Shown: piece after piece, positions 10,004 to 58,566 of the stretch
Position numbering within the stretch: position 1 is the stretch's first letter
Layout of the letters: every line of letters starts with the position of its first letter
DNA from: Trichocoleus desertorum NBK24
GTDB taxonomy: Bacteria > Cyanobacteriota > Cyanobacteriia > FACHB-46
Direction of reading: 5' to 3'
NCBI RefSeq assembly: GCF_030409055.1
Contig: NZ_CP116619.1
Span: 1,521,628 to 1,585,627, forward strand
Length of the DNA stretch: 64,000 bases
Notes under the pieces: model-generated
The model's database searches: none
The model's input: only the letters and a program-made list of their open reading frames with translations
Told to the model about the DNA's origin: nothing
Position numbers and translations under genes: made by a program

Positions 10004-11218
10004 CTATACGCTTAACGCTGCCTGAAGATGTTGCGGTTGGGGAATTTGAGCGGCGATCGCTTTACCAATTTCGAGAGAAGAGGTAGCCGCCGGAGAAGGT
10101 GCATTGCAGACATGAATGGAATTGGGGCCAGAGATAATCAGAAAATCATCCACCAGTTTCCCATCGTCCATCAGGGCTTGAGCCCGGACGCCTGCATGGG
10201 TAGGAATCAAATCCTCAGAGCGCACTTCCGGAATTAGCTTTTGCAAACTGCGAACAAAGGCAGCTTTACTAAAGGAGCGAATAATCTCCTGAATCCCTTC
10301 ATCGGCATGTTTAGCTGCCAACTTCCAGAAAGCGGGGTAGGTCATGACTTCGGCAAAGTCGCGCAAGTCAAAATCGGTTTTCTTGTAGCCTTCGCGTTTG
10401 AGGCTGAGAACTGCGTTGGGGCCAGCATGCACGGTACCGTCGATCATCTTGGTGAAGTGAACCCCTAGGAACGGAAACGCTGGGTTAGGCACAGGATAGA
10501 TCAGCGTTTTGACTAGGTAACGCTTTTCGGGCACCAGTTCGTAATACTCACCCCGAAAGGGCACAATCTTGGCTTTGGGGTCAGCTTGGCCCATTCTGGC
10601 AACGCGATCGCTATGTAACCCTGCACAGTTAATTACAAACTGAGTCTCGAATTCGCCTTGAGTTGTTTCGAGCACTTGGCGATCGCCTGCCTGGACAATC
10701 TTGGTCACCTTGGTATTCAGCCGTAAGTCCCCGCCTTGCAGCCGAATCAGCTCAGCATACTTGAGGCAAACCTGTTTGTAGCTGACAATGCCTGTCGTGG
10801 GAACGCGAATCCCAGCGATGCAGCTTACATGCGGCTCAACTTCCCGGACTTCCTCAGCCGTGATCTTAGTGACATTCAAGCCATTCTCTAAACCACGTTG
10901 GAAGAGGTTTTCCAGCCGAGGAAGCTCGCTCTCGTCGGTTGCGACAATTACCTTGCCACAAACTTCGTGAGCGATGCCGTGCTCTCGGCAAAATTCCACC
11001 ATCGAGCGGCTACCGTCCCGACAGAATTTCGATTTAAAGCTGCCTGGCTTGTAATAGATGCCAGAGTGGATGACTCCACTGTTATTGCCCGTTTGGTGAA
11101 AGGCCCAATTACTTTCTTTTTCTAAAACTAAAATCTTGGCATCTGGATATTTTCGGCCTAATGCCATCCCGGTAGAAAGGCCAGCAATGCCGCCGCCAAT
11201 GATCGCGAAATCATACAT
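10004..11218 (-). CDS. lhgO: L-2-hydroxyglutarate oxidase family FAD enzyme
   Basis: The 404-aa FAD-dependent oxidase is of the DAO fold. It has the dinucleotide motif DFAIIGGGIAGLSTGMALG at the N-terminus, and QTGNNSGVIHSGIYY, the flavin-side motif typical of LhgO/YgaF. C-terminally it has THAGVRAQAL and ISGPNSIHVCNAPSPAATS. LhgO normally oxidises L-2-hydroxyglutarate to 2-oxoglutarate at the membrane. Here it lies inside a nucleotide-sugar operon, between rfbF and the SDR epimerase, with short gaps. A role in making a modified sugar or acid substituent is possible but unproven. Confidence 0.85.
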   Translation of the reverse strand: MYDFAIIGGGIAGLSTGMALGRKYPDAKILVLEKESNWAFHQTGNNSGVIHSGIYYKPGSFKSKFCRDGSRSMVEFCREHGIAHEVCGKVIVATDESELPRLENLFQRGLENGLNVTKITAEEVREVEPHVSCIAGIRVPTTGIVSYKQVCLKYAELIRLQGGDLRLNTKVTKIVQAGDRQVLETTQGEFETQFVINCAGLHSDRVARMGQADPKAKIVPFRGEYYELVPEKRYLVKTLIYPVPNPAFPFLGVHFTKMIDGTVHAGPNAVLSLKREGYKKTDFDLRDFAEVMTYPAFWKLAAKHADEGIQEIIRSFSKAAFVRSLQKLIPEVRSEDLIPTHAGVRAQALMDDGKLVDDFLIISGPNSIHVCNAPSPAATSSLEIGKAIAAQIPQPQHLQAALSV

Positions 11219-11277
11219 AAAGCTATTTGCCCCTGAGCTGAGCCTTGAACGTCTTCATCTATAAGGTAAGAAGTGGC

Positions 11278-12051
11278 CTACCACACTTTCCAAGGAGCCT
11301 TACCACTCTTCCACAGCTCTTCCAGATATTGCTTGTCACGCAGCGTATCCATCGGTTGCCAAAAGCCATTGTGTCTGTAAGCGGAAAGCTCTCCATCGGA
11401 AGCCAGTTTCTGGAGCGGCTCTTTTTCCCAAACTGCCGAGTCTCCGTGGATGTAGTCAATCACTTCTGGCTCTAGAACAAAATAGCCACCATTAATCCAA
11501 GCACCATCCCCTTCCGGCTTTTCCTGAAAACTCTCAATTTTGTTTTGCTCCGAACCTAAGCAAATGGCACCAAAGCGTCCGGGTGGTTGGGTAGCAGTTA
11601 GAGTGGCTAGGGTTTTCTGGGATTTGTGAAACTCTACTAACTCCTGAACATTGACGTTGCTCACACCATCCCCATAGGTAAAGCAAAAGGTTTCGTTGCC
11701 AATGTGCTCTCTCACCCGTCTTAGCCGCCCGCCTGTAAGCGTCTCCTCTCCCGTATCTACCAGGGTCACTCGCCAAGGCTCGGCATAGCCACAATGCACA
11801 TTCATTTGGTTAAAGCGCATGTCAAACGTGACATCTGACATGTGTAAAAAGTAATTGGCAAAATATTCTTTAATGACGTAGCCTTTGTAACCACAGCAAA
11901 TGATGAAGTCATTGATGCCATGAGCCGAGTAAGTCTTCATTATGTGCCAGAGTATAGGCCGACCACCAATTTCCACCATCGGTTTGGGCTTAATGGTCGT
12001 TTCCTCACTGAGACGAGTTCCGAGTCCGCCAGCCAATATCACGGCTTTCAT
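11278..12051 (-). CDS. rfbF: Glucose-1-phosphate cytidylyltransferase
   Basis: The 257-aa nucleotidyltransferase makes CDP-glucose from CTP and glucose-1-phosphate. The signature [18 protein letters not shown] and [18 protein letters not shown] are at the N-terminus. [12 protein letters not shown] carries the metal-binding Asp (near 130). The insert with [17 protein letters not shown] and the C-terminal [18 protein letters not shown] are typical of RfbF rather than RfbA. It is the first gene of the five-gene minus-strand operon. The 271-base gap upstream, shared with the divergent GMC gene, should hold the promoter. Confidence 0.92.
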
Positions 12052-12322
12052 AGGATAACCCTGTAGTTTTCAAGGAGACGGTTAGTGCGTTTTTGTGCTT
12101 TTACGTAGACCGAGGAGCGTTGAGGCGGGAACACGGACTGAAGCACTATGCCTCTACGTAGTAATACTAGCCAAAGGTAAAGCGATCCACTGTAAAAATC
12201 TGATAAATCAGGCTAGGGTTTCTGTAAAAACTCAAAGAAACCATTTACATGAGCTTGCAATTCTATGTAGAACCTATAAGTAGTCGCTCTAACTTGAAAC
12301 ACTGTCACAAGGTGATTGTTGA

Positions 12323-13990
12323 ATGCTAATTGATGCGCGTACCCTGCCTGCAGGCACAACGATTGAGTCTGATGTCTGCATTATTGGTGCTGGACCCGCA
12401 GGGATTACACTGGCACGCGAATTTATCGGACAGGACTTTCGAGTTTGTCTACTGGAGAGTGGCGGCGCTGATCCGGATCAAGCCACGCAGTCCCTTTGCC
12501 AAGGGGAGAACAGCGGTGACTTGTATCAGGACTTGTGTAAGTCGCGCCATCGCCAGTTCGGCGGGACGGCCAATGAATGGCATATCACCATTACGCCAGA
12601 AGAAATTGGGGGGCGTTGTGGCCCTTTGGAGGCGATCGATTTCGAAAAGCGGGACGGCATTCCCTATACTGGTTGGCCTTTCGATCGCGCCTACTTAGAC
12701 CCCTTCTATCGACGGGCGCAGCAGCTCTGTAGGATGGGGCCGTTTACCTATCAGGCTGAAGATTGGGAAGAAGCCCAAAGTCCTCGCTTGCCTTTCCTTG
12801 AAGGTAAGGTAGCGACAGCAGTTTATCAATTCACCCCTCGTAATGTGTTCACGCAGGAATACCAAGAAGATCTGCGACGAGCCGATAACATTACCACTTA
12901 TCTCCACGCCAATGTGCTGGATATTGAGACTAATGAAGTCGCCAAAACCGTGACTCGCTTGCAGGCTGCTTGTTTAGAAGGCGATCGCTTTTGGGTGACA
13001 GCAAAACTATTTATTCTGGCTACAGGCGGCATTGAGAATGCTCGTTTAATGCTGCTTGCCAACCAGAATCAAAATGTAGGATTGGGCAATCAAAATGACC
13101 TAGTTGGCCGATTCTTTATGGATCATCCTGGTCTCAGCTACATGTTTTTTCCTAAGCAGCGGCAAATCTTTAACTCCACAGGCTTGTACGACCTGCGAAA
13201 AGTTAAAGGATTTGCGATTAAAGGCAAGCTAGTGCTGACTGAAGAGGTCAAGCGGCGGGAGAAACTGCTAAATAGTGGCGCATTGATTCATCCTAGACCT
13301 CAAGGTTTCCGTTCTCAGGCGGTGAGTTCCTTGAAAACACTGCTTTCCTCCGCCCAAAAAGTCAAAGTTCCCTTCCAACCCTTTAAACACTTAGGCAATG
13401 TTGTCAGCGGAGCCGATGAGCTAGCCCTATCTGCTTATCGGCGGCTCAGGAAGATTCAGCCAATTCTACCGAACGATATTGAGGGCGGTTGGTCGCATCT
13501 TCCGAATAAAGAAAAACTGTTCGCGTCTTTCCAGATTAGCCAGATGATCGAACAGGCTCCGAATCCGGATAGCCGCGTCATGTTAAGTGATGAACACGAT
13601 CGCCTAGGCCGCAGAAAGGTAAAACTGCACTGGACCTGGCACGAGCTAGATGTCTACAGCGTCAAGCGTACTTACGAAATTCTAGATGCAGAGCTAAAAA
13701 GGTCAGGCATTGGTAGATTAGAAAGCGATTGGCAGTTTGAAGGGAAAGACTTAACTGACACTAGTGCCCACCATCATATTGGTGCGACCCGTATGCATAA
13801 TGACCCCAAGCAAGGGGTTGTGGATGAGAATTGTCAAGTACATGGCATTTCTAACTTGTTTATCGCAGGTAGTTCTGTGTTCCCCACAGGCGGTTACGTC
13901 AACCCCACCCTAACAATCATTGCGCTGGCACTGCGTCTAGCCGACCATGTCAAGCAACACATGGCTACCAAGGTCGCAAATATTAATTAA
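12323..13990 (+). CDS. GMC-family FAD-dependent oxidoreductase
   Basis: The 555-aa protein has the ADP-binding motif DVCIIGAGPAGITLAREF at residues 18-35. The flavin contact is at RHRQFGGTANEWHI. An ATGGIENARLM segment lies near 232. The GMC C-terminal block is HHIGATRMHNDPKQGVVD, then IAGSSVFPTGGYVNPTLTI, with the catalytic His in the HHHIGA region. Family members oxidise alcohols or sugars (glucose dehydrogenase, pyranose oxidase type). It is divergent from the rfbF operon across a 271-base gap, so it may oxidise a polysaccharide precursor (inference). No signal peptide is visible. Confidence 0.85.
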   Translation: MLIDARTLPAGTTIESDVCIIGAGPAGITLAREFIGQDFRVCLLESGGADPDQATQSLCQGENSGDLYQDLCKSRHRQFGGTANEWHITITPEEIGGRCGPLEAIDFEKRDGIPYTGWPFDRAYLDPFYRRAQQLCRMGPFTYQAEDWEEAQSPRLPFLEGKVATAVYQFTPRNVFTQEYQEDLRRADNITTYLHANVLDIETNEVAKTVTRLQAACLEGDRFWVTAKLFILATGGIENARLMLLANQNQNVGLGNQNDLVGRFFMDHPGLSYMFFPKQRQIFNSTGLYDLRKVKGFAIKGKLVLTEEVKRREKLLNSGALIHPRPQGFRSQAVSSLKTLLSSAQKVKVPFQPFKHLGNVVSGADELALSAYRRLRKIQPILPNDIEGGWSHLPNKEKLFASFQISQMIEQAPNPDSRVMLSDEHDRLGRRKVKLHWTWHELDVYSVKRTYEILDAELKRSGIGRLESDWQFEGKDLTDTSAHHHIGATRMHNDPKQGVVDENCQVHGISNLFIAGSSVFPTGGYVNPTLTIIALALRLADHVKQHMATKVANIN

Positions 13991-14435
13991 GCAGTGCTCA
14001 AGCAGTTAGGAGGGTTGGTCAACTGCCAATTCGACAGACGGGTGTAGGGGCAAATGGCTAGTCATCCTACGGAACTTACATTTACATCTGAGTAATCAAG
14101 TTTTCTGTCTACATGAATTTGCTGAAAATGTGAAGACCGCAACGAAAATTGTGGACGATCAAAAAGAGTGAGTAAGTTTACGTCATTCTTGCTAATAAGA
14201 ATGACGTACATAAATTAGCATCTGACAGATCAACTTCACAAAAGTGAACTCAACCTCAAAGACATTCATTACGACCTAGCAACTTCAGATGGATGATACC
14301 TCCAAAGCTTCTAGGGCAACCATACTAATTTTATGAAGTTCGCTATAGACCTAGGTGCAATCTGTGTGTAAACCCAACCAATAGGGCTACGTGCACTGGA
14401 CACAAAATTATTACATCAAATCAAAAGGAGTTTAT
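13991..14435. other. Noncoding gap between the GMC oxidoreductase and the GDSL hydrolase
   Basis: This 445-base stretch has no supported gene or tRNA. It contains the perfect hairpin at 14179-14208 and an AAAGGAG ribosome-binding site at 14424-14430 that decides the start of the next gene. Confidence 0.6.
14179..14208. repeat. Perfect 12-bp inverted repeat with 6-nt loop
   Basis: TACGTCATTCTT and its exact complement AAGAATGACGTA are separated by GCTAAT. No T-run follows on either strand, so a classic Rho-independent terminator is unlikely. A palindromic operator or a structured RNA are alternatives. Confidence 0.6.
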
Positions 14436-15206
14436 ATGAATGAACGGGTTGTTTTCTTTGTATTTGCAATTTCTATTTTTATAAACATTGCGTTTTCTTC
14501 GTTAGCAATTTACCTGCTAATCAAAAAAGGTGGTATTGGTTATACAGCGAAAAAGTTAAATCAATTCATGAAATCGAGCTTTTCACTACAGCATGGAGAG
14601 TCAGACAGTTCTGTAGTGTATCCGCCAAGTTATTTTCACCGCAAAAGCGTTTTTGGTGCTCTGAATCTATCCAAAAATAAAATAGTGTTTTTAGGGGATA
14701 GCATTACAGAGAGCTGTGAATGGTCAGAACTATTTAATAATACAAACTTAATAAATCGTGGCATAGGAGGTGATACAACAGACGGAATTTTAGGCCGCTT
14801 AGATGAGATACTCGAATCTTATCCTTGCCAGATATTCTTAATGGTTGGCATCAATGACTTGAATGCCGCACGAACGCAAGAACAGGTAGTATCCTATTAC
14901 AAGGAAATCTTGAGGCAGATTCAAACAACGTCACCTACGACTCAAGTATTTGTACAAAGTGTTTTACCTATAAATAAAGATTTTGATCGCAAAACATTTA
15001 AAGCTAACAATAAAGCCATCAGAGCGCTAAATTCTAAACTTCAGAGTTTGGCTGCAGACTTCTCCTTTCAATATTTAGACTTATTTTCTCACTTTATGAA
15101 TTCTCATCAAAAACTAGACACATGCTATACATTTGATGGGATTCATTTGAATGGGAAAGGATACATTGTTTGGAAACAGTTAATTGAGAAGTGGATAGTG
15201 GAGTAA
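14436..15206 (+). CDS. Membrane-anchored SGNH/GDSL hydrolase
   Basis: The 256-aa protein starts with an N-terminal membrane anchor (VVFFVFAISIFINIAFSSLA) followed by an SGNH hydrolase domain. Block I is IVFLGDSITESCEW with the nucleophile Ser. Block II is the Gly of NRGIGGDTTDG, block III the Asn of MVGINDLNA, and block V is DGIHLNGKGY with catalytic Asp and His. The ATG at 14436 is chosen over an upstream in-frame start because AAAGGAG lies 5 bases before it. Such enzymes remove acyl groups, often acetyl, from glycans. Acting outside the membrane on the local polysaccharide would fit the acetyltransferase next door. AT-rich compared with neighbours. Confidence 0.85.
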   Translation: MNERVVFFVFAISIFINIAFSSLAIYLLIKKGGIGYTAKKLNQFMKSSFSLQHGESDSSVVYPPSYFHRKSVFGALNLSKNKIVFLGDSITESCEWSELFNNTNLINRGIGGDTTDGILGRLDEILESYPCQIFLMVGINDLNAARTQEQVVSYYKEILRQIQTTSPTTQVFVQSVLPINKDFDRKTFKANNKAIRALNSKLQSLAADFSFQYLDLFSHFMNSHQKLDTCYTFDGIHLNGKGYIVWKQLIEKWIVE

Positions 15207-15219
15207 AAATTTCCTCACC

Positions 15220-16095
15220 TTAACTTCTAATAGCACAACTACTTTCAGGCACCATTTTAGTTATTTCAGGTACGACTTTAGTTGTCTCAGGTACGACTTT
15301 AGTTGTCTCAGGTACGACTTTAGTTGTCTCAGGTACGACTTTAGTTGTCTCAGGTACGACTTTAGTTGTCTCAGGTACGACTTTAGTTGTCTCAGGTGCC
15401 ATTTTAGTGACTGTTCCTATATCTATCGAGCGTTGCCCTACTACCTTAGCCGGAACTCCTACAGCGATCGAATAAGGAGGGATATCCTTCGTTACCACTG
15501 CGCCAGCCCCAATCACACTGCCCTGGCCGATCGTAACTCCATCCACAACCTTTACCCCCGTCCCTAGCCAACAATCATCTCCGATCACAATTCCCTCACA
15601 AGTCAGACCTTGTTCACGAATTTTATGATTCTGATCAGCAAAGATATGATTGTTCGCATAGATACCCACATGTGAGGCAATCAAACAATCCTTACCAATG
15701 GTAATCGGGCCAGGACCATGAATACAGGTATAGGGATTCACAGCGGTATGTTCGCCAATCTCAATCTGGCAGTTATCACCAGTTGTACGGATGTCTACCC
15801 CTCTATCTAGATGAACCCGATCTGCTAGAGAAATGCGATTATTTCGCCCCTTACTATCTACTCTGACCCCACGTTGAATGCTAACTCGATTTCCTATTTC
15901 GATACAGTCAGCCCCGACAAATTCTGCTCCCGGTCGAATGAAGACTGGGCTGCCCAGTTTTGCAAAGATAGATTGATAAAGTCTTTGACGGAGCACAAAA
16001 CCAGGAGATAATGGCACCCAACCCACAAGCGTGGTGATGAGAGCTTCTTGACGGTACGATCGCTGAGAAGTAAATGGAGCGGAGTCGAGGTTCAT
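15220..16095 (-). CDS. Hexapeptide-repeat acyltransferase with heptapeptide-repeat tail
   Basis: The 291-aa protein has residues 1-230 forming a left-handed beta-helix acetyltransferase of the WbbJ/maltose acetyltransferase type. It shows repeated [IV]G..[VC] hexapeptides, the catalytic His in YANNHIFAD, and IGAGAVVTKDIPPYSIAVGVPAKVVG at the helix end, an unmistakable family signature. The last 55 residues are tandem copies of VPETTKV, absent from normal family members. The ATG at 16095 is chosen; a TTG at 16110 is in frame. It likely O-acetylates a polysaccharide subunit. It is convergent with the SGNH hydrolase, 13 bases between stops, suggesting add/remove partners (inference). Confidence 0.85.
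   Translation of the reverse strand: MNLDSAPFTSQRSYRQEALITTLVGWVPLSPGFVLRQRLYQSIFAKLGSPVFIRPGAEFVGADCIEIGNRVSIQRGVRVDSKGRNNRISLADRVHLDRGVDIRTTGDNCQIEIGEHTAVNPYTCIHGPGPITIGKDCLIASHVGIYANNHIFADQNHKIREQGLTCEGIVIGDDCWLGTGVKVVDGVTIGQGSVIGAGAVVTKDIPPYSIAVGVPAKVVGQRSIDIGTVTKMAPETTKVVPETTKVVPETTKVVPETTKVVPETTKVVPETTKVVPEITKMVPESSCAIRS
15262..15409. repeat. 21-bp tandem repeat inside the acyltransferase gene
   Basis: The unit TCAGGTACGACTTTAGTTGTC is repeated at a 21-base period with six copies of the TACGAC core (15271, 15292, 15313, 15334, 15355, 15376). Diverged units lie at both ends. It is in frame and encodes the heptapeptide VPETTKV. Near-identity of the copies implies recent expansion by slippage. 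Confidence 0.92.
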
Positions 16096-44356: not shown

Positions 44357-44926
44357 TTTATTTCTACTAGCCCCTAGCCCACTGCTAAGGCGGGAACGAA
44401 GTTCTAACCCGAACTCAGCCCAAAATTCAACTCATCCTAATCTTTGCAGCGCTCAAAAAATATATCTTTAGGTAGTAGCAAGATCACATAAATATAGTCG
44501 CTTGAAATTCAGGCTGCTTATTTCAATTCCGTATTTTCTCGTACAATTTTGAGCCAAGTCTCTCCGGAAGTTACTTATCTTGCACGTGTATCTATAACTA
44601 TCTTGGTGCAGAGCTTGGTTAGGGTAAAACTTTCTCTAGCTACTTCTACGACTAGCACAACTGCCAATCTAGAATAGCGATCGCGGTTCAGACTGAGTTC
44701 AGGATTTTTCTTATCGCATTTTGCGGGTCGAATCTCTCTCCGTGTAGGTGTATTCGTAAAGTATCCTAAGGCATTCTGAGTCTGTGCAAGTTACATACCA
44801 TACTGACTGTAATGACGTAGAAGGAATGCGGAATCTTCAGCGCTTCTACGAATGTTTCTGTCAAGCTTTCGGTGCTTGTTTCTGTAAATTCTATTAACGA
44901 TTGCCTCTCATTCGACCTTGCCACTT
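44357..44926. other. Noncoding gap before the phospho-signalling genes
   Basis: 570 bases with no supported gene, tRNA or hairpin of note. It must contain the promoter of the FHA gene. No recognisable operator was found. Confidence 0.55.
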
Positions 44927-45607
44927 ATGATTAACTGTCCGAATTGTGCTCACGCCAATCCAGATGGAACAACTCAGTGCGAGGCTTGTTACACACCCTT
45001 GCCTGAAACCATAGCTTGTCCCAACTGTCAGGCTGCTGTTTCTGCGGGAGCTGAGTATTGTGGTCAGTGCGGCTATGCCATGCAAAGTGCTAATCCCGCT
45101 AACCAACCTGTGCCTCAAACCATTGTGAACCCACCAGCGCCAGTTTCAGTCGCTGAAATACAGCACAATCCGGTGACTCCTGCTATGGTTCCACCACCGC
45201 CGATTGCAGTTATGCCCGATGCTACCTCAGCGCCACCCCCCTTTACTCCGCCTGCGACGGCTGCTAAAACTCAGTTACAGCAGTTTATGGCGCGGTTGCT
45301 CCATGTCCAAAGTGATACGGTGCTAGAATTGCCCCTCCACTTGGATGTCATCCACATCGGGAAGCCCAACGATCGCATTCCTCCAGATTTAGATATATCG
45401 GGTTTTGCAGATTCTGATATTGTGTCCCGTATTCACGCGGATATCCGGGCTGAGGGAGATGCCTACTATATAGAGGACGTAGGCAGTTCTAACGGTACCT
45501 ATGTCAACAACTTGCCTCTGCGCCCTGGCGATCGCCATCGGTTACGGGCAGGCGATCGCATCTCGCTGGGTAAAGGTGATCGAGTCACCTTTCTGTTTCA
45601 GACGTAA
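44927..45607 (+). CDS. Double zinc ribbon and FHA-domain protein
   Basis: The 226-aa protein has two N-terminal zinc ribbons (CPNCAHANPDGTTQCEACYTPL and CPNCQAAVSAGAEYCGQC). A Pro/Ala-rich linker (about 65-120) follows. The C-terminal FHA domain reads phosphothreonine (IHIGKPNDRIPPDLDIS, VSRIHADIRAEGDAYYIEDV, SSNGTYVNN). The ATG at 44927 is used; a TTG at 44918 is in frame. It is probably an adaptor that binds proteins phosphorylated by the kinase encoded 2.4 kb downstream. First of three linked signalling genes. Confidence 0.9.
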   Translation: MINCPNCAHANPDGTTQCEACYTPLPETIACPNCQAAVSAGAEYCGQCGYAMQSANPANQPVPQTIVNPPAPVSVAEIQHNPVTPAMVPPPPIAVMPDATSAPPPFTPPATAAKTQLQQFMARLLHVQSDTVLELPLHLDVIHIGKPNDRIPPDLDISGFADSDIVSRIHADIRAEGDAYYIEDVGSSNGTYVNNLPLRPGDRHRLRAGDRISLGKGDRVTFLFQT

Positions 45608-45728
45608 CCTTTCCACAGGTAGGGGTTGCAACCTAAATTAGGAGGAGTTAGGAAGCTAGGTAGCCACAGTCCCATTTACGGCATCCTAGAGCTTGGCAGC
45701 AATGACGGGAATTTGAGGCAGTTTGATC

Positions 45729-47894
45729 ATGCTTGTTTGTCCCCAATGTCAGTTTGAAAGCCCCGATAGTAATAATTTCTGTCAGAAATGCGGTACTTCT
45801 CTAACTCAAAAAACTTGCCCTGAGTGTGGTAGCTCAGTTCCATTTGATGCCAAGCAATGCCCATCTTGCAGCACGACGACTGCAACTGTGTGGCAAGCGA
45901 TCGTTTGCGGACAAACAGCAGCCAAAGCCAAAACCGAAACAGATGATGTCCCAACTTGGGGCTACCTAGATGCAAAACAGCGTTACCAACTGCTAGAGCC
46001 TTGGCCCGCTAAAAGTGGGTCGCAACAGAATGTGGCCGTGAAGGTACTAGACTGTCAACCGTTTCAGATGTCGATCTTGGAAACGCTGTTTTATCAGGTT
46101 TACAGTGAAACTGAGAGTGACGCTGAGAGTGGCACTAAGGCCAATTCCGCAGCGACTGAAACTGCTGCTGAAATCAATACCGACGCAGCTTCTGAGATGT
46201 GGGTAGACGAGAACCAGCCCATAACTAGCGCTGTCACGAAAACCCCAACGAATCCAGAAGCTGATCTAGAAGCTGATCCAGAAGACACAGCCGCGATCGC
46301 AATTCCGGCGATCGCCGAACCCTATCTAGCGCTACAAGCAGAGTTTTATCACACCCTGCCTGGAGTACATGACGCTTGGCAACAAGACCAGCAGTCTGTA
46401 TTGCTGCTAGAAGATCGCTCTCACCTGCCGCTACTCGCTGATTTATGGTGTGAGAGCCAAATTTCGCCATTACAGATTTTGTATTGGCTGCGCGAGATTT
46501 CTGAGATTTGGGATGTCTTAGCAGCTTGGCATTGCTGTCAAAGCTTACTAGAACTGAGCAACTTGCGAGTCGATGAAGACCAAGTATTCTGTCTACAGCG
46601 CTTATACGGCGACCTTGACGGCACCTCTCCCACACTGCAAGATTTAGGCAAGTTCTGGCAGGAGTTGTTTGACCAATCGCAGCGCACTCAGGTCGCTTCA
46701 TTAGCCCTTTTGTTGCGTGACTTGCAAGAAGCTAGTATTCAAACAACCAACCAGCTCCGTGTCCGCTTACAAGCGATCGCCCAAGAACTCCAAAGCGCCT
46801 TTACCGCACCTATGATGAATCCCGAATTGTCTGCTCCTGACTTCATAGATGATGCTAGCCCAGAGAACCCAGCGGATAGTGTTTCCCCTCACACCCTGGC
46901 AGCAGACCCAGATAGCACCTTAGAGAGTACTCACAGCAGCCCCCCCAACCAGCTGTCTACTCTAACAGACTTGGAAGACAGTAGTGCCGATGACGCACCC
47001 ACCGTGGTCTTACCTATGCAACTAGTGAGCCTCGAAGATGCAGGCCGCACAGATATTGGTCGGCAACGAGAGCACAACGAAGACTATTTCGGCATTCATA
47101 CCAAACTGCACAAAATTGAGAGTCCTCAAGGATGCACAGTGCAAGCGAAGGGGCTGTACATCCTATGTGATGGCATGGGGGGTCATGCTGGCGGTGAAGT
47201 TGCCAGTGCGCTAGCAGCCAATACATTACGAGATTATTTCCAAGCTCTTTGGCTAGAGCCACAAAGTTCAGTAGCAGAAGTGGAGCGACGAGAGCAATCA
47301 CTACCGACAGAAGCAGAAATTCGAGAGGCCGTTCGTCTCGCCAACCTAGCTCTGTATGACATCAATCAACAAAATGCCCGCTCTGGCAGCGGTCGCATGG
47401 GAACCACCCTCGTTTTAGTTTTGATTCAAGGGACAACCGCAGTAGTTGCCCATGTCGGTGACAGTCGGCTCTATCGCTTGAGCCGCCGCCAAGGGTTAGA
47501 GCAGGTCACTGTTGACCATGAAGTCGGCCAACGAGAAATTCAACGAGGTGTTGAACCAGACATTGCCTATGCTCGCCCCGATGCTTATCAACTGACTCAA
47601 GCTTTAGGGCCACGAGATGAAAACTTTATTAATCCTGATGTGCAATTCCTTGACCTGACTGAAGATACCTTGCTGTTACTCTGCTCAGATGGTCTCTCAG
47701 ACCATGATTTGCTAGAGACCCACTGGCGTAGTCACTTAGAGCCTCTACTCAGCTCTCAGGCCAACCTAGAGCGTGGGGTGACTCAGTTAATCGATCTAGC
47801 AAATCAATACAATGGGCACGACAATATTACGGCGATCGCTATTCGCCTCAGAGTACGGCCTAATCTTGCCCAACTACGCCAATCTGCTAGTTGA
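45729..47894 (+). CDS. Zinc ribbon-PP2C-type Ser/Thr phosphatase
   Basis: The 721-aa protein has two zinc ribbons at residues 1-55 (CPQCQFESPDSNNFCQKC and CPECGSSVPFDAKQCPSC). A long acidic middle region (60-435) of unclear fold follows. The PP2C domain comes after it: TDIGRQREHNEDYFGI, YILCDGMGGHAGGEVAS, TTLVLVLIQGTTAVVAHVGD and SRLYRLSRRQGL, then LLCSDGLSDHD and NGHDNITAI. All metal-binding Asp residues are present. It should reverse phosphorylation by the adjacent kinase. The ATG at 45729 is used. Confidence 0.92.
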   Translation: MLVCPQCQFESPDSNNFCQKCGTSLTQKTCPECGSSVPFDAKQCPSCSTTTATVWQAIVCGQTAAKAKTETDDVPTWGYLDAKQRYQLLEPWPAKSGSQQNVAVKVLDCQPFQMSILETLFYQVYSETESDAESGTKANSAATETAAEINTDAASEMWVDENQPITSAVTKTPTNPEADLEADPEDTAAIAIPAIAEPYLALQAEFYHTLPGVHDAWQQDQQSVLLLEDRSHLPLLADLWCESQISPLQILYWLREISEIWDVLAAWHCCQSLLELSNLRVDEDQVFCLQRLYGDLDGTSPTLQDLGKFWQELFDQSQRTQVASLALLLRDLQEASIQTTNQLRVRLQAIAQELQSAFTAPMMNPELSAPDFIDDASPENPADSVSPHTLAADPDSTLESTHSSPPNQLSTLTDLEDSSADDAPTVVLPMQLVSLEDAGRTDIGRQREHNEDYFGIHTKLHKIESPQGCTVQAKGLYILCDGMGGHAGGEVASALAANTLRDYFQALWLEPQSSVAEVERREQSLPTEAEIREAVRLANLALYDINQQNARSGSGRMGTTLVLVLIQGTTAVVAHVGDSRLYRLSRRQGLEQVTVDHEVGQREIQRGVEPDIAYARPDAYQLTQALGPRDENFINPDVQFLDLTEDTLLLLCSDGLSDHDLLETHWRSHLEPLLSSQANLERGVTQLIDLANQYNGHDNITAIAIRLRVRPNLAQLRQSAS

Positions 47895-47971
47895 GTCACA
47901 AGCCTAAAACATAGCTCTTACCTTACAATAAAAGCCTAGATTGCTACCTGTCGCGGCAAGGATTTCCCGAT

Positions 47972-49204
47972 GTGGTTACCTTGACCTTATTAGACCTCCA
48001 AGCTCTGGTTCCCCCGCAACGCTGGTGTTTTGAGAACGAGTCAATGATTCGCATTGGCCGCTCTCCTGACAACCACGTAGTGCTCAATAGCACCCTTGTC
48101 TCTCGCTATCATCTAGAACTGCGACGAACAGACACGGCTGATCCCAACAGTTCCTGGGAAATAGTGAACCAAGGCAGAAATGGTACCTTCCTCAACGGAA
48201 TTTTAGTAACCCAAGGGCTGCTGCTAGATGGGTCTGTGTTGCAGTTGGCTCAGGGTGGTCCTACGCTAAAGTTTCAAATTCAAACCACCACCGCTCAACC
48301 CCATCGTCCTGCGCTGCTGGGGTGTCCTCACTTGGGCAATCCGCCGGACAACCTTTTTTGCATCTACTGCGGGCAGCCTTTGCAAGTAGAGCGGCAGATT
48401 CGCCAGTATCAGCTTCTGCGTCCTCTAGGGCAAGGAGGCATGGGGACTACGTATTTGGTCTGGGACGCAGCTCAAGCTGCGATCGCTCAAACGGCTCAAG
48501 GCCAAGCCAAGCAATCGCCTTTGCGGGTGCTCAAGGAAATGAATGCTGATATGGCCACGATCGCTAAAGCGCAAGAATTATTTGAGCGCGAAGCCCGAAT
48601 CTTGCAAACTTTACGTCACCCTGGGATTCCACAATTCTTTGATTACTTCGTGGAGGGTGGCAGCAAATACCTGGTCATGGAAATGATCCAGGGGCAAGAC
48701 TTAGAAAAACAAATTTATCAGCAAGGCCCGGTGAAACTCAGCCAAGCCCTAGAATGGATGATTCAAACCTGTCAAGTTCTGGACTATATACATAGCCAGC
48801 ACCCTCCCATCATTCACCGAGATATTAAGCCTGCGAATTTGATGGTGCGCCATCACAACCAACAAATTGTGGTATTGGACTTTGGCGCGGTTAAAGAATT
48901 TGGCACCCCGTTGGGCACCCGAATTGGAGCAGAGGGCTATAGTGCTCCAGAGCAAGAGCGAGGGCACCCCGTTACCCAATCGGATTTGTATGCGATCGCT
49001 CCAACTTTAGTATTTCTGATCACCGGAGAACCTCCCTATGGGTTCTATCGGAAGCGAGGCTCTGAGTACCGCTTTCGACCCGAAGGAATTCCCACGCTTA
49101 CACCCCGCTTACAAGCGGTGCTGGAACAAGCCACTCACCCGAAAGCAAGCGATCGCTACCAAACAGCCCTAGAATTGGCACAAGCGTTGGCTAGGTGTCT
49201 TTAG
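47972..49204 (+). CDS. FHA-zinc ribbon-Ser/Thr protein kinase
   Basis: The 410-aa protein starts with an FHA domain at about residues 20-105 (IRIGRSPDNHVVLNSTLVSR, GRNGTFLNG). Next is a zinc ribbon (CPHLGNPPDNLFCIYCGQ, near 115). The kinase domain has the glycine loop LLRPLGQGGMGTTYLVWD, the Lys in RVLKEMN, catalytic IIHRDIKPANLMV, the metal-binding DFG in VLDFGAVKEF, and YSAPEQERG. It is a complete active-looking kinase of bacterial Hanks type without a membrane segment. The start is a GTG at 47972. With the phosphatase and FHA adaptor it forms one module. Confidence 0.93.
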   Translation: MVTLTLLDLQALVPPQRWCFENESMIRIGRSPDNHVVLNSTLVSRYHLELRRTDTADPNSSWEIVNQGRNGTFLNGILVTQGLLLDGSVLQLAQGGPTLKFQIQTTTAQPHRPALLGCPHLGNPPDNLFCIYCGQPLQVERQIRQYQLLRPLGQGGMGTTYLVWDAAQAAIAQTAQGQAKQSPLRVLKEMNADMATIAKAQELFEREARILQTLRHPGIPQFFDYFVEGGSKYLVMEMIQGQDLEKQIYQQGPVKLSQALEWMIQTCQVLDYIHSQHPPIIHRDIKPANLMVRHHNQQIVVLDFGAVKEFGTPLGTRIGAEGYSAPEQERGHPVTQSDLYAIAPTLVFLITGEPPYGFYRKRGSEYRFRPEGIPTLTPRLQAVLEQATHPKASDRYQTALELAQALARCL

Positions 49205-51610: not shown

Positions 51611-54481
51611 CTATCGCTCTCTTGCCGTTTGGCTTAAGGGAATCTCGATCACAAGTTCGGTGCCTTCGCCGGGAGCTGAGATGCACTTCAGATTGCCACC
51701 GTGTTTCTCAGTGATGATGCCATAGCTAATTGATAAACTTAAGCCAGTACCTTTGCCGATCGCTTTGGTTGTAAAGAAAGGATCGAAGAGCCGAGACTGG
51801 AAATGCAGTGGAATTCCTGGCCCATTATCAGCAATGCTAATTTGCACTTGTTGATTTTCTGTCATCCGGGTGCGAATGCGAATGGTGCTAGGCTTTGGTT
51901 CTCGCGTGGCTAAGGGGTGTTGCTTGTCATACTCCTCTAAAGCATCGATCGCATTGGTCAGAATATTCATAAACACTTGGTTGAGCTGCCCCGCATAGCA
52001 TTCCACCAAGGGCAAATCGCCGTAATCTTGCTCAATTTGGATCACAAACTGGTCAGACTTCGGCTTTAAGCGATTTTGCAAAATCATCAGCGTACTTTCC
52101 AGGCCAGTATGAATATCAATCGCTTTCATATCCGCCTCGTCCATGCGCGAAAAGTTTCGCAAAGCTAAGACAATTTTTTGAATTCGCTCTGTGCCTACCT
52201 GCATCGAATTCAGCAATTTGGGTAAATCTTCAACCAGAAACTCCAAGTCGATCGTGTCGATCTCAGCCTCAATCTCTGACACCGGATGCGGATAATGTTT
52301 TTGGTAAAGTCGAATTAAATCGAGCAAGTTTTGGGTGTAATCATCAGCATGGCGCAGGTTGCCATGAATAAAATTCACGGGGTTATTGATCTCATGGGCC
52401 ACCCCTGCCACCAGTTGCCCTAAAGAAGAGAGCTTTTCGGTTTGAATGAGTTGAGCTTGGGTTCTTTGCAATTCCCGCAGCGTCTTTTCTAGGGCTTGGT
52501 TCTGCTGTCTAGATTGCGCTTCTGACTGGCGCAGAACTACTTCAGCTTGCTGACGCTCCGTGATGTCTCGCAAAATCACTACATACTCTCTGAGTTGAGA
52601 ATTAACGCGATCGCTAACGGAAACATCTAACAACTTGGTTTGGGCAGCCTGTATCAACCTTTGCTCACTGCGAATCGCCCAATGCTGCGGATACTCAGCT
52701 AGACCCGCCAAATATTGGCTCAAAGGATGCCCTAACACCTCTCGTGGCTTCATTTCGAACAAACCTGTAGCGGCTGGGTTCAAGCGCTGAATCACCCCAG
52801 CTTCATCTACGACCACGATGGCATCTTGAGCAATATTAAAGAAATGCTCTGCCGCTTCCTGCGCTTCCATCACCTCTGCCACTTGTGGCAAACTAGTCCA
52901 GCAAGCGATCGCAACTCCGACAAAGGCGATCGCCAGCAGCAGTACCACAAACAAATTGGCATTACTTTCAAAAGCAATACCATCCAGTAAAGCCCGCACT
53001 CCCCAACCAATCGTCAGCGCACTACAAATGAGCAAGATCAGAACACAGATCTGCGTCAGCATCAAGTCTGAGACTTGCCGATTGGGCCGCCTTTGATAGC
53101 GCCGTATCCACCATTCCGCTCGTAACCCAGGAATTGCTGTCCGACGTAGCCCTTGATCCAGTAGCAAAATACTGATGGGCAACAGCAGCCCCATAAACAG
53201 GTCTTGCCCATTCCAGGCCAGCCCCCCTATCACTAACACCAAAGCTTCTACGATGCAAAAGACCAGAGACCAGCGCGGCCACAAGGCTTCTGGATGTCCT
53301 TGCCGTAGCCACATGCCCAAATGAATGCCAATCATGCTGCTCAGGTAGCCTGTCCCCGTCACCATGACCACTCTGGTCACATCTCCCCAGATCAGGCAGG
53401 CCACACTCAAAAGCCCTGTAAAAGCCAAACTCGGCCCCAATACACCCCGCCGAGAAACCACCCCGAACACAGGAGCCAAGTAGCCATCTAAGGAAAGTTG
53501 ATATAAAACTCGCGGCGCATTAGAGACAGCAGTCGCAGAACTGAGTAAACATCCAGAGGCGATTAGAAAGGTGACTAAAACTTGGGCTTTTTGACCCCAA
53601 AAAGGTTGAGCCGCTGCAACTAAATTCAAAAAGGCGCTGTCTCCCACGCCTGTTGCAGGGGTCAAGCGCATCAGAACCCAGGAGCCACCGATATAAACAA
53701 TGGGTAGAAACCAAGCTGCAAACGACAACCATCGCAGCGTAGAAGCAGGACGACGGCTATCTGCCACAAAAGAAGAAGCAGTCTCGCAACCATACACCGC
53801 ATAGATCGCCACAAAAACCCACTTAGTCCAATCTCGCAGATCCAAGCTAGACCACTCTGTTGGCAACAGCCCTGGCGTATTGGGAGCGAGGGTTAACCAG
53901 CCACAGCCTTGGACACAAAACGCCAACAAGAAACCAATAGCGGGTAGCACAAAAAATAGATGCAGAATGCCTAAAGCCCGCGTGCCACTGAAGGCCACAA
54001 TAAAGGGAATAGCTGTAAAAATTATTTTTAGAGCGGTTTCTGGACAAACCAGACCCAGCGGTTCTAAGTTAGTTTTGATTAAATCGGTCAGAATGATGGC
54101 ATTCATAGCGGGCACCGATACCCAACCCAGCCAATAGCCGATCGCTACATATTGAGCTAAGCCCGGATAATGCTTCAGGAGCCGAGTTGTATAGTTGGGC
54201 GTCCCACCCGAAACGTCGGGCCAGCGAGTGCCCAAATGCTTCACCTGGAGATTTAGCATCACACCCACAAGGGCAGTGGGTATCCACACCCAAAGGGCTT
54301 GGGGACCTAAGGCTAGATGCATAGCAGGAGCCGTCCCTAACCACAACAGCAGCCCACTAAGGCCAAATCCCCCTGTTTCGAGAGAACTCAGACTACGGGT
54401 GAGGCGAAAAGAGGCATTTAAGCTGGGATCGGTACGACCAGAACTGTCCATGAAACACTGCTTAATCAACAGGCGAAACAT
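51611..54481 (-). CDS. APC-family permease fused to a PAS sensor histidine kinase
   Basis: The 956-aa protein has residues 25-460 forming a complete amino acid/polyamine permease-like domain (LSSLETGGFGLSGLLLWLG, GGTPNYTTRLLKHYPG, VFVAIYAVYGCETASSFVAD, SNAPRVLYQLSLDG). Two more membrane segments follow at about 475-535. A PAS domain comes next (HFFNIAQDAIVVVDEAGVIQ, near 550), then a coiled coil, HisKA with the phospho-acceptor in AGVAHEINNPVNF (near 695), and HATPase_c (NQVFMNILTNAIDAL, DNGPGIP, GKGTGLSLSISYGI). It likely couples substrate binding or transport to phosphorelay, as CbrA does with a different carrier family. No response regulator is adjacent. Confidence 0.88.
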   Translation of the reverse strand: MFRLLIKQCFMDSSGRTDPSLNASFRLTRSLSSLETGGFGLSGLLLWLGTAPAMHLALGPQALWVWIPTALVGVMLNLQVKHLGTRWPDVSGGTPNYTTRLLKHYPGLAQYVAIGYWLGWVSVPAMNAIILTDLIKTNLEPLGLVCPETALKIIFTAIPFIVAFSGTRALGILHLFFVLPAIGFLLAFCVQGCGWLTLAPNTPGLLPTEWSSLDLRDWTKWVFVAIYAVYGCETASSFVADSRRPASTLRWLSFAAWFLPIVYIGGSWVLMRLTPATGVGDSAFLNLVAAAQPFWGQKAQVLVTFLIASGCLLSSATAVSNAPRVLYQLSLDGYLAPVFGVVSRRGVLGPSLAFTGLLSVACLIWGDVTRVVMVTGTGYLSSMIGIHLGMWLRQGHPEALWPRWSLVFCIVEALVLVIGGLAWNGQDLFMGLLLPISILLLDQGLRRTAIPGLRAEWWIRRYQRRPNRQVSDLMLTQICVLILLICSALTIGWGVRALLDGIAFESNANLFVVLLLAIAFVGVAIACWTSLPQVAEVMEAQEAAEHFFNIAQDAIVVVDEAGVIQRLNPAATGLFEMKPREVLGHPLSQYLAGLAEYPQHWAIRSEQRLIQAAQTKLLDVSVSDRVNSQLREYVVILRDITERQQAEVVLRQSEAQSRQQNQALEKTLRELQRTQAQLIQTEKLSSLGQLVAGVAHEINNPVNFIHGNLRHADDYTQNLLDLIRLYQKHYPHPVSEIEAEIDTIDLEFLVEDLPKLLNSMQVGTERIQKIVLALRNFSRMDEADMKAIDIHTGLESTLMILQNRLKPKSDQFVIQIEQDYGDLPLVECYAGQLNQVFMNILTNAIDALEEYDKQHPLATREPKPSTIRIRTRMTENQQVQISIADNGPGIPLHFQSRLFDPFFTTKAIGKGTGLSLSISYGIITEKHGGNLKCISAPGEGTELVIEIPLSQTARER

Positions 54482-54825: not shown

Positions 54826-57800
54826 ATGCCCTACGAACCGCTACACCACAAATATCGTCCCCAAACTTTTGCAGAACTGGTGGGGCAAGAAGCGATCGCA
54901 ACCACGCTGACCAACGCGCTACGACAACAGCGGATTGCACCTGCTTACTTATTCACCGGGGCTAGGGGAACGGGTAAGACCTCCAGCGCTCGAATTTTGG
55001 CTAAATCGCTGAACTGCCTGCAAAGTGACGCACCCACAGAAACTCCTTGCGGCAAATGTGAAGTCTGCCGTGCGATCGCCAACGGTTCCGCCCTAGATGT
55101 CATTGAAATCGACGCAGCCAGCAACACCGGGGTAGACAATATTCGCGAGTTGATCGAGCGATCGCAATTTTCACCTGTCCAGTGCCGCCACAAAGTTTAT
55201 GTGATTGACGAGTGCTTAACTGGAGACTCGCTCGTTCAAACCAGTGAAGGACTGATGCGCATTGATAATCCTGAGATTCAGGGCAAACAAGTTCTCAGCT
55301 ACAATGACCAAACCGGAGCCTGGGAATTCAAAAAAGTCTTGCGCTGGTTTGATCAAGGCGTCCACCCCACATACTTGATCAAAACTACTAACCGAGAAAT
55401 CCGCTGTACCGGAAATCACCTGATTCGGACAGATCAAGGATGGAAACCAGCCGCCGAACTACAGCCAGGGATGAAAATCTTCTCGCCCAACCCAGCGCAA
55501 GATTACAGGCCAAATGGGCAGAGTTGGAGCCACTCAGACCAGAATGCGGTTGTGGCTGTGGCGAAAAATTGGCCATCCCCACGATCGCTCGCAAAACCAG
55601 CGTCGAGTACATCCAACGCTATTGGCAGAAACACCCTACAAAACAAAACCACTACAAGGTCCTTAGTCTCACAGAGAAACTCGCAGAACTGGAAAACTCT
55701 AGACCCTGCTGTGCTTGTGGATGCGGCGAGCAACTCGAAATTCCGCACTACATGCTCACGCGATCGCAACCCGCAACCGTTGCAGGTGTCAAAAACCATT
55801 GGCAGCGGCACCCCTATAAGCAAGGCCACGGCATCTGGGCAACTCGCACCCACAACTTCATCAACAACCTCGAACCCTTATCTCCAGACACCTTGGGCCT
55901 TATCTACGGCACCTTACTGGGTGACTGCTCCATCACCTACCCCAACCGCCACAGCAGATTCCCTCGCTTGGCCTGGACTCACGGCATCCCACAACAAGCC
56001 TGGTTGGAATACAAAGCTGAGCGATTGGCAGGATTACGCCCCAAACTCAGAACCGCAACCAATCGAGGGTATGGGCAGCAATCAGCCTGTGGCAGTACTG
56101 CCTGTCACCCCCAACTCGCAGAAGTTTTTCAGGTCGTCAAACCGTCGGACAACCAGAAACAAGTTTCTCAAAACTGGCTCCAGCGACTCACTCCTGAAGA
56201 ATTGGCTTGGTGGTACATGGACGACGGATCACTTACTCTCACCCCTCAAGGTAGCCCTCAAATCCAGCTCCATACAGAAGGTTACTCAGCCAACGAAAAT
56301 CAACTCATTGCCGAGTGGCTTACGGAAAGCGGCTACCCAGCCAAGGTTAGAAGTTACACAAGAGCCAGTAGAGGCACAATCTACTACTACTTGGCAACGG
56401 GAGCAGATACTAGCCGCAAGTGGCTCTCAGACTTACAGCCGTACGCCATCCCATCAATGGAGTACAAATTTGGAGCAGGTCAAGTCTGTCCACCTCGTTG
56501 GTGCTGAAGCGGTTTACGACATTGAGGTTGAAGACAACCACAACTTTGTGGCAAATGGACTGCTGGTTCATAACTGCCATATGCTCAGTACCGCCGCATT
56601 CAACGCACTGCTGAAGACATTGGAGGAGCCGCCCGATCGCGTGGTGTTTGTGTTGGCGACGACCGATCCGCAGCGGGTGTTACCCACCATTATTTCGCGG
56701 TGTCAGCGGTTTGACTTTCGGCGGATTCCGTTAGAGGCGATGGTGCACCACCTAAGCGCGATCGCCCATAACGAATCGATCAATATTGCTCCCGATGCGG
56801 TGCAACTGGTAGGTCAGATCGCTCAAGGTGGGTTGCGCGATGCCGAGAGCTTGTTAGATCAACTGAGTTTGCTAGAAGGGCAAGTAACGGTTGAGCGAGT
56901 CTGGGATTTAGTAGGTGCAGTTCCAGAGCGGGACTTGTTGGCTTTATTGCAAGCGATCGCCACCAATGACCCTGCCCAGGTTCTAGATGGGGCACGCCAT
57001 TTAATGAATCGGGGTCGAGAGCCTCTGATCGTGCTGCAAAATTTAGCCAGCTTTTACCGTGACCTACTCATTGCCAAAACTGCGCCGAGCCGAGGAGATT
57101 TAGTTGCAATTACCCCACCGACTTGGGCGCAATTGTGCCAGTTTGCTCAACAGTTACCGATCGCCCTAATTTTAGAAGGGCAAAAGTATCTCCGAGCGGC
57201 AGAGGTGCAGATTAAAAACTCGACTCAGCCCCGTCTGTGGCTAGAAGTCACGTTGCTGGGTTTGTTGCCTTCTGAGTTGGGAGTAGAACCGCCCGTTGTG
57301 ACTGCTGCTCCTGTTGCACCCCAATGGGTTCCCACTCCAGTAACCATTCCACCCGCCACAACATCCTCAGCTCCCTTACCCGCCAAAACAACAGCCAGCT
57401 CGTCTAATGGCAAAACGCCCAGTGTGGCTAGTCAGTTGCAGCAATTGTTGAGTCAAGTTGCTAGTAAACATCAGCTCTCTACGCCAGCGGCAGACTTGGA
57501 AATACTAGCAGGTGCGATCGCCCAAGCTCTTGTGCATGATCCGGACTTTCGCAGTGCCTTGATTGCATTGATTTCTGCCCCTCAGCCCACTGTTGCATCA
57601 ATTTCAGAAACGGTAGAAACCAGCAGTCATATTCAAGCGGCAGTTGTAGCTGAAACTGTAGTTCATGCAACCACTCAGAACGGCAAAGCCGAAGTAGTGG
57701 AAACAAGCCATGTAGAAGTTGATGAAGCGATCGCCGCGATTGAAACCAGCACAGTAGAATTCAGCGAACCCGCAAAGCCAACTGAAGCCTTTGACGAACC

Positions 57801-58566
57801 TGTTTATCAGCCAGAAGCAGAAGCTGATGAAGTCGCAGACAACGGAATACCAGCGGCTGAAGCGGTACCAGCACTGAACTTAGAGCAATTGTGGCAAAAA
57901 GTTTTAGGTTGCATTGAGCTTCGGGGGACACAGGCTTTACTGGGGCAACAGTGCTACTTGCTAGGACTCGATAAACAGCAAGCCAAGGTTGGGGTGCGAT
58001 CGCAACCTCTGATCAAGATCGCTCAACGCAGTTTGCCAATCGTGGAGGAAGCCTTTCACAAAGCTGTAGGTTATTCTGTCAAAGTATCTTTAGTCGTAGC
58101 CACAGCCGCTGAACCTGCACCTGCCATCCCAGCAGCTCCTGAGGGTCATGCTCAACCCTCTGCGGCGATCGCACCACACCCCCCTCGATTAGTAGAAAGA
58201 ACACCACCGAACAGCTCTCAAGCGCTAGAGGCAAGGCCACAAAGCGCTAGTTCTCCTGTCGTTGCTCCCGAAACAAATCACTCCCAGTCGTCCCCACCTG
58301 CCTCTACAGCGGCTACTCCACCAGAATCGATTACCCCAGTAGATGCGATCGCAGCAATCGACCCTCCATCGCTGCAAAACATTCCTTGGCAAGAAGAAGA
58401 CGAAGTGACACGAGCCGCCAAGCGACTAGCAGAGTTCTTTGGGGGTAAGGTCGTGGATTTAGAAAGCGGTTGGACTTCTGACGGTAACGAGTTAGTCGTC
58501 GCGCCCCCAATCAGCGAGTGGGATGAAACCGACTCAGGCGCAGAAGCAGATGAAGTACCCTTCTAA
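54826..58566 (+). CDS. dnaX: DNA polymerase III subunit gamma/tau with intein
   Basis: The 1246-codon clamp-loader ATPase gene is interrupted by a 454-residue intein (residues 130-583), leaving a 792-aa mature protein. The N-extein has YRPQTFAELVGQEAIATTL, Walker A LFTGARGTGKTSSARILA, the zinc module CGKCEVC and the Walker B strand VYVIDE. The C-extein resumes CHMLSTAAFNALLKTLEEPP, with sensor 1 VLATTDPQRVLPTIISRC and sensor 2 GGLRDAESLLDQ. A long variable tail follows. The intein splits the Walker B/DEC(H) motif, a well-known insertion point. The frame has no stop, so full translation and splicing are expected. Confidence 0.96.
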   Translation: MPYEPLHHKYRPQTFAELVGQEAIATTLTNALRQQRIAPAYLFTGARGTGKTSSARILAKSLNCLQSDAPTETPCGKCEVCRAIANGSALDVIEIDAASNTGVDNIRELIERSQFSPVQCRHKVYVIDECLTGDSLVQTSEGLMRIDNPEIQGKQVLSYNDQTGAWEFKKVLRWFDQGVHPTYLIKTTNREIRCTGNHLIRTDQGWKPAAELQPGMKIFSPNPAQDYRPNGQSWSHSDQNAVVAVAKNWPSPRSLAKPASSTSNAIGRNTLQNKTTTRSLVSQRNSQNWKTLDPAVLVDAASNSKFRTTCSRDRNPQPLQVSKTIGSGTPISKATASGQLAPTTSSTTSNPYLQTPWALSTAPYWVTAPSPTPTATADSLAWPGLTASHNKPGWNTKLSDWQDYAPNSEPQPIEGMGSNQPVAVLPVTPNSQKFFRSSNRRTTRNKFLKTGSSDSLLKNWLGGTWTTDHLLSPLKVALKSSSIQKVTQPTKINSLPSGLRKAATQPRLEVTQEPVEAQSTTTWQREQILAASGSQTYSRTPSHQWSTNLEQVKSVHLVGAEAVYDIEVEDNHNFVANGLLVHNCHMLSTAAFNALLKTLEEPPDRVVFVLATTDPQRVLPTIISRCQRFDFRRIPLEAMVHHLSAIAHNESINIAPDAVQLVGQIAQGGLRDAESLLDQLSLLEGQVTVERVWDLVGAVPERDLLALLQAIATNDPAQVLDGARHLMNRGREPLIVLQNLASFYRDLLIAKTAPSRGDLVAITPPTWAQLCQFAQQLPIALILEGQKYLRAAEVQIKNSTQPRLWLEVTLLGLLPSELGVEPPVVTAAPVAPQWVPTPVTIPPATTSSAPLPAKTTASSSNGKTPSVASQLQQLLSQVASKHQLSTPAADLEILAGAIAQALVHDPDFRSALIALISAPQPTVASISETVETSSHIQAAVVAETVVHATTQNGKAEVVETSHVEVDEAIAAIETSTVEFSEPAKPTEAFDEPVYQPEAEADEVADNGIPAAEAVPALNLEQLWQKVLGCIELRGTQALLGQQCYLLGLDKQQAKVGVRSQPLIKIAQRSLPIVEEAFHKAVGYSVKVSLVVATAAEPAPAIPAAPEGHAQPSAAIAPHPPRLVERTPPNSSQALEARPQSASSPVVAPETNHSQSSPPASTAATPPESITPVDAIAAIDPPSLQNIPWQEEDEVTRAAKRLAEFFGGKVVDLESGWTSDGNELVVAPPISEWDETDSGAEADEVPF
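55213..56574 (+). other. DnaX intein (splicing domains in the dnaX frame)
   Basis: Boundaries are Cys1 (TGC at 55213) and the terminal Asn (AAC at 56572-56574), before the +1 Cys of CHML. Splicing block A is CLTGDSLVQTSEGLMRI. Block B is GNHLIRTDQGWKPAAEL. Blocks F/G are VYDIEVEDNHNFVANGLLVHN, with the expected penultimate His. Between about 55495 and 56500 the dnaX frame encodes only a Ser/Thr/Pro/Asn-rich stretch without endonuclease motifs. In the dnaX frame this is therefore a mini-intein with a long linker, and the endonuclease lies in another frame of the same DNA. Confidence 0.93.
55440..56507 (+). CDS. I-SceI-like LAGLIDADG homing endonuclease, out of frame inside the dnaX intein
   Basis: The 355-codon frame is shifted relative to dnaX. 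It has two N-terminal Cys-rich repeats (PECGCGCGEKLAIP at 34-47 and PCCACGCGEQLEIP at 89-102). Each is followed by an aromatic/His segment (YWQKHPTKQNH, HWQRHPYKQGH), perhaps a zinc-binding unit. LAGLIDADG motif 1 is TLGLIYGTLLGDCSI (acid D162) and motif 2 is LTPEELAWWYMDDGSL (D261/D262). The C-terminus YAIPSMEYKF matches the I-SceI type. All catalytic acids remain. The first ATG is 55440; the frame is open from 55392. No good ribosome-binding site is seen, so internal initiation or frameshifting is needed. Confidence 0.85.
   Translation: METSRRTTARDENLLAQPSARLQAKWAELEPLRPECGCGCGEKLAIPTIARKTSVEYIQRYWQKHPTKQNHYKVLSLTEKLAELENSRPCCACGCGEQLEIPHYMLTRSQPATVAGVKNHWQRHPYKQGHGIWATRTHNFINNLEPLSPDTLGLIYGTLLGDCSITYPNRHSRFPRLAWTHGIPQQAWLEYKAERLAGLRPKLRTATNRGYGQQSACGSTACHPQLAEVFQVVKPSDNQKQVSQNWLQRLTPEELAWWYMDDGSLTLTPQGSPQIQLHTEGYSANENQLIAEWLTESGYPAKVRSYTRASRGTIYYYLATGADTSRKWLSDLQPYAIPSMEYKFGAGQVCPPRWC

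Follow-up and report, generated by a model that had tools for sequence, protein, structure and literature searches.

The locus studied here raised the question of whether an amino acid carrier domain joined to a histidine kinase in one polypeptide still transports a solute or has become a sensor. The window, i.e., the whole stretch of DNA that was analyzed, comprises 64,000 nucleotides of Trichocoleus desertorum NBK24 (contig NZ_CP116619.1, positions 1,521,628 to 1,585,627). The gene of interest (Table 1) starts with ATG and runs for 956 uninterrupted codons on the minus strand; the plus strand of 51611-54481 contains 45 in-frame stops. In the encoded protein, Pfam matched AA_permease (residues 41-369, 30.9 bits against a cut-off of 24.6), PAS (547-643), HisKA (687-714), and HATPase_c (832-950), in this order, and AA_permease was matched by 25 of 38 homologues (E 0.01). 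All kinase motifs (H696, N843, DNGPGI at 885, and GTGLS at 911) were intact. A frameshift or assembly artefact as the origin of the fusion was ruled out by a 95% identical copy in the same genus and approximately 120 homologous proteins with the same join. The window protein was confirmed as a one-chain fusion of an APC-type module with a PAS histidine kinase. An earlier sequence-only reading had described an APC carrier domain, two membrane segments, PAS, HisKA, and HATPase in these 956 aa, and both Pfam and the structural models agree with it. It had also set the fusion apart from the SSS/SLC5 type of CbrA, which was borne out: AA_permease was found, Pfam gave no SSS/SLC5 match in the window protein, and the fusion is conserved.

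Table 1. Features of the APC-kinase gene, with positions in the window
Feature	Position	Strand	Length or basis
Gene for APC-fold sensory module, PAS, and histidine kinase	51611..54481	minus	956 aa
APC (LeuT-fold) 12-TM core, residues 24-463	53093..54412	minus	Pfam, AlphaFold model, structure matches
L-W-L, residues 46-48, at approximately the position of the carriers' TM1 GSG motif	54338..54346	minus	inferred from alignment offsets
TM6 motif Y227-A-V-Y230-G-C-E233	53783..53803	minus	aligned to AdiC W-S-F-I-G-V-E
TM13 and TM14 (two extra TM helices), residues 473-538, ending in conserved ACWTSLPQ	52868..53065	minus	models and homologue alignment
Helix 531-550, from TM14 to PAS	52832..52891	minus	full-length model; leaves no space for a STAC domain
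PAS domain, residues 547-643	52553..52843	minus	Pfam and full-length model
Signalling helix from PAS to HisKA, residues 641-681	52439..52561	minus	linker-spacing analysis and full-length model
HisKA/DHp, residues 687-781; phosphoacceptor H696 in HEINNP (52394-52396)	52139..52423	minus	
HATPase_c, residues 832-950; N box N843, G boxes DNGPGI (885) and GTGLS (911)	51632..51988	minus	

The AlphaFold model of residues 24-539, for which 38 homologues were used as input, had a pLDDT of 88 and a pTM of 0.88. The closest solved structures were those of y+LAT1, LAT1, AdiC, ApcT, and KimA (Z 33-35, 380-430 residues), and the wider matches (Z 29-35) included further APC carriers, such as Asc1 and CAT, as well as the LeuT-fold proteins KimA and NKCC1. 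The structure-matched core stopped near residue 463 and was followed by helices 473-500 and 504-538, which the full-length model puts at 473-501 and 507-529. The full-length model, in which the domain arrangement is unreliable (pLDDT 79.5, pTM 0.59), gave the order TM14, helix 531-550, PAS, a 41-residue helix, the DHp hairpin, and the ATPase domain. STAC was absent from the Pfam results for the window protein, and the gap between TM14 and PAS was occupied in the full-length model by a 20-residue helix only. The module profile matched seven carriers with an E value of 1.9e-18 and was closest to amino acid permeases (AA_permease, LysP).

The unwound TM1 of APC carriers contains a G(S/T)G motif, the amides of which hold the substrate carboxylate (PMC10998858). 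G[S/T/A]G was present in TM1 of all seven carriers checked (AdiC, AroP, PheP, ProY, LysP, CycA, and the host genome's own APC carrier), whereas the motif search for G[S/T/A/C]G in TM1 was negative for 149 of 153 module sequences, the window protein among them. A Trp occupied the W47 column of the alignment in 149/153 sequences, and the AdiC alignment offsets put the carriers' TM1 site at approximately residues 45-48, a placement of W47 in TM1 made at ~15% identity and without residue-level superposition. The offsets of LAT1 and ApcT agree with residues ~45-48. A by-eye register on G49-T50-A51 was set aside, as the AdiC offsets point to ~45-48; these three residues are semi-conserved, read GTG in 4 sequences, and would occupy the TM1 site in an alternative register. 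The DSSP string showed no break in TM1, but likewise none at the TM1-TM2 turn, and was left out of the evidence. The TM6 half-site was kept (Y227, Y230, and E233), with E or D at position 233 in 153/153 sequences. At the level of aligned residues, the classical substrate site of the module is half kept (TM6) and half altered (TM1). This combination is better explained by a receptor whose pocket has changed than by an ordinary working carrier, and the module is probably no longer a normal transporter. A non-standard TM1 is compatible with transport.

These results bear on what had been claimed from sequence. The "full APC-type carrier" holds for the fold, which is complete with 12 TM helices, but not for the TM1 G-[S/T/A]-G. 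The sensing of "nutrient flux" was not supported as stated, as the missing carboxylate motif points to a receptor.

To survey the distribution of the module, 388 genomes from the class Cyanobacteriia were searched with its profile, and matches over 540 bits were taken as full-length. Some match was obtained in 83 of the 388 genomes. All 84 full-length copies lay inside frames of 738-1419 aa, the two shortest being copies broken within the kinase, and all came from genomes of ~3.9 Mb or larger. No stand-alone module was found among these 84 copies or in a 386-genome phylum survey, where the module was present in 37 genomes and 27 of 143 genera. Separate APC carriers scored just 25-57 bits (frames of 483-540 aa) versus over 540 for the module. 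The alignment scan of ~85,000 species genomes yielded 229 relatives, the best 80 of which were all cyanobacterial, and the plasmid search gave two distant Rhodococcus matches only (24% identity). Within the genus, the 95% identical copy (genome L179) adjoins dnaX, and the profile search detected no module copy in a second genome. In the host's own genome, the APC half had no paralogue, the kinase half had ~29 relatives (44-67% identity), and the sole AA_permease_2 match was an ordinary 448-aa carrier with a GAG motif. Many cyanobacteria appear to use an amino-acid-transporter-like membrane domain as a general sensor, always joined to a signalling enzyme.

Outputs were counted in 120 proteins from two partly overlapping collections, weighted to Nostoc. 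The PAS and HEINN kinase combination of the window protein was the commonest (53 proteins), and the others were GGDEF-EAL (24), a HEINN kinase without PAS (13), a HEIRN kinase (12), a hybrid kinase with receiver (10), SpoIIE (2), a HisKA_2/HWE kinase (1), and another HisKA kinase (1); four proteins were interrupted or cut off. The survey of cyanobacterial architectures called for in the sequence-only reading returned a module that is never alone and is coupled to several unrelated outputs, and the APC module appears to serve as a general input domain. The 13 kinases without PAS show that, judging from domain content, the module can act as the only input. When the outputs were mapped on a tree built from the APC part only (94 rows, quick method, uneven branch support), output type required 16 changes and enzyme class required 4; the SpoIIE and HWE forms fell, on starred branches, within the kinases, and some output groups may have a single origin. 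The APC core was kept at 46-62% identity across different outputs, and mean identities among the PAS-HEINN proteins were 55% for the APC core, 46% for PAS, and 61% for the kinase core.

Linker lengths were regular. In HEINN kinases without PAS, 48 residues separated WTSLPQ at the end of TM14 from the phospho-His, except in two divergent proteins, where the distance was 55. Measured from the PAS DIT motif, the phospho-His lay 51, 58, or 65 residues away in those HEINN forms in which DIT was located, and 53 or 60 residues away in most hybrids. Such steps of seven are expected of a coiled helix held in register. Spacing counted on related sequences, as here, is only suggestive of an in-register helix joining the module to HisKA.

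The window gene is followed by rnhA and then a bestrophin gene, with dnaX divergent. In genome L179, extra ORFs of 1190 and 220 aa separate the APC kinase gene from rnhA (10967-15360), whereas the two are adjacent in the window. No response regulator gene adjoins the window gene; receiver and receiver-kinase genes lie directly downstream of HEIRN and hybrid relatives. In HEIRN forms, a receiver protein of ~123 aa comes next, overlapping by 4 bases in several cases, and then receiver-kinases; in most hybrid forms, a receiver-kinase of ~410-460 aa comes next. Both gene sets look like phosphorelays in apparent operons. At one locus (L053, 5485-14745), three tandem APC-HEIRN kinase copies precede a receiver protein and two receiver-kinases. 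A histidine decarboxylase gene (NF002748) is convergent with an APC-GGDEF-EAL gene at L113 (9408-10655) and ~21 similar Nostoc loci, which account for most Nostoc GGDEF-EAL forms, and a hydantoinase/oxoprolinase-type gene lies near some Nostoc kinase forms; the decarboxylase pairing, seen in one clade, and the hydantoinase may reflect plain synteny and not be a clue to the ligand.

Other features were observed in the window. The dnaX gene (54826-58566, plus strand) holds an intein at residues ~151-583 (Pfam Intein_splicing), within which an ORF in a different reading frame (55440-56507, plus strand) encodes a 355-aa LAGLIDADG_2 endonuclease. Both frames are open in genome L179 (~86-87% identical), and an out-of-frame homing endonuclease inside an intein is unusual. 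A protein-phosphorylation cluster at 44918-49204 (plus strand) comprises a zinc-ribbon/FHA protein, a zinc-ribbon PP2C phosphatase (NF011149), and an FHA Ser/Thr kinase (by eye). By eye, the ORF at 2113-3621 (plus strand) encodes a reverse transcriptase of the group II intron type that ends in an HNH-like segment; a transposase-like ORF lies nearby at 230-1573.

With a probability of roughly 0.55, the window protein is a sensor kinase of the membrane that receives its input through an APC-fold module, one that descends from amino acid carriers and now serves mainly as a receptor. This reading is based on the fusion of all full-length copies, the swapping of outputs, the existence of kinases without PAS, linkers that step by seven, the APC core being more conserved than PAS, and the missing TM1 motif, with Ks-Amt5 as a precedent. 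From these we infer ligand binding, loss of transport, the direction of the signal, and a dimer mechanism. The ligand would be a solute, in all likelihood an amino acid or one of the related amines or amides, that shifts the LeuT-fold core into another conformation; this change would run via TM13-14 into the straight helix and through PAS to the HisKA helices, altering H696 autophosphorylation in the dimer. The regulator phosphorylated by the window kinase would be encoded elsewhere. In relatives, the same module would drive hybrid kinases with receiver partners, cyclic-di-GMP enzymes, and a PP2C-type phosphatase.

Three other readings were weighed against the receptor. In a true transceptor of the CbrA kind, the APC domain would still transport a solute, and the kinase would read transport or binding. 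The complete fold, the TM6 motif with acidic residue 233 in all sequences, the strongly conserved core, and the transport of histidine by the SLC5 domain of CbrA (PMC7918813, PMC13022988) are in line with this, but the lost TM1 motif, the near-invariant Trp close to the site, and a module not once seen as a separate carrier make it unlikely. More improbable is a module that reads the membrane or ionic state (proton-motive force, osmotic, or lipid) in place of a solute: NKCC1 (cation-chloride) and KimA (potassium) are among the structural matches and the amino-acid carboxylate motif is lost, but the profile is nearest to amino acid permeases.

The lowest probability was assigned to the APC domain as a mere membrane anchor, with PAS sensing a cytosolic signal. 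PAS is present in most kinase forms and may do most of the sensing in the window protein, and CbrA lacking its SLC5 domain still phosphorylates (PMC7918813). Against the anchor stand the kinases without PAS, the better conservation of the APC core, and its identity across outputs, which is more than an anchor would need. A broader form of the receptor reading is tentative and falls a little short of even odds: the APC module would be a new class of prokaryotic sensory input domain, a carrier fold recruited as a dedicated receptor, through which cyanobacteria pass one common signal to their kinases and phosphorelays, to the turnover of cyclic-di-GMP, and to a PP2C-type phosphatase.

The family is sizeable and provides natural controls: some members have PAS and others lack it, and the same module is paired variously with kinase, cyclic-di-GMP, and phosphatase outputs. 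This makes it well suited to studying the passage of a LeuT-fold carrier from transport to signalling, and points to a common, possibly nutrient-type, signal among cyanobacteria with large genomes. Searches of the openly accessible literature, which takes in few subscription journals, yielded no account of such a protein, and automatic annotation of the architecture very likely already exists. Transporter-derived receptors are already known, with less varied outputs in CbrA and Ks-Amt5 than in the APC form.

Among known systems, the APC carriers (AdiC, LAT1, LysP, and ApcT) share with the module the fold (Z ~30-35), the TM6 motif, and the profile match, but they stand alone and have the TM1 G-[S/T/A]-G, whereas the module is always fused, is without this motif, and has two additional TM helices. 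Yeast Ssy1 and Gap1 are APC-family amino acid signallers, eukaryotic and without a signalling enzyme in the chain. In bacteria, transporter-like receptors have been called rare (PMC11109136, a structural survey; PMC13022988, a recent CbrA structure paper). The 5TMR/S-component-fold sensor kinases also use a transporter-related membrane fold as a prokaryotic receptor (PMC11109136), but of the ECF S-component type and not APC. In CbrA and CrbS (MxtR), a carrier-like multi-TM domain is combined with PAS, DHp, and CA in one chain (PMC13022988, PMC7096432, PMC7918813); their carrier is SSS/SLC5 and they have STAC, whereas the window protein has an APC domain and, in the model, the short helix ahead of PAS. 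Ks-Amt5, the ammonium sensor kinase of Kuenenia, likewise couples a transporter-derived receptor to a kinase and has neither STAC nor HAMP; since ammonium is bound by it but not translocated, a transporter domain can control a kinase by binding alone (PMC5764959). It differs in having the Amt fold, a trimeric state, and a kinase as sole output. The window protein resembles CbrA and Ks-Amt5, yet belongs to neither family.
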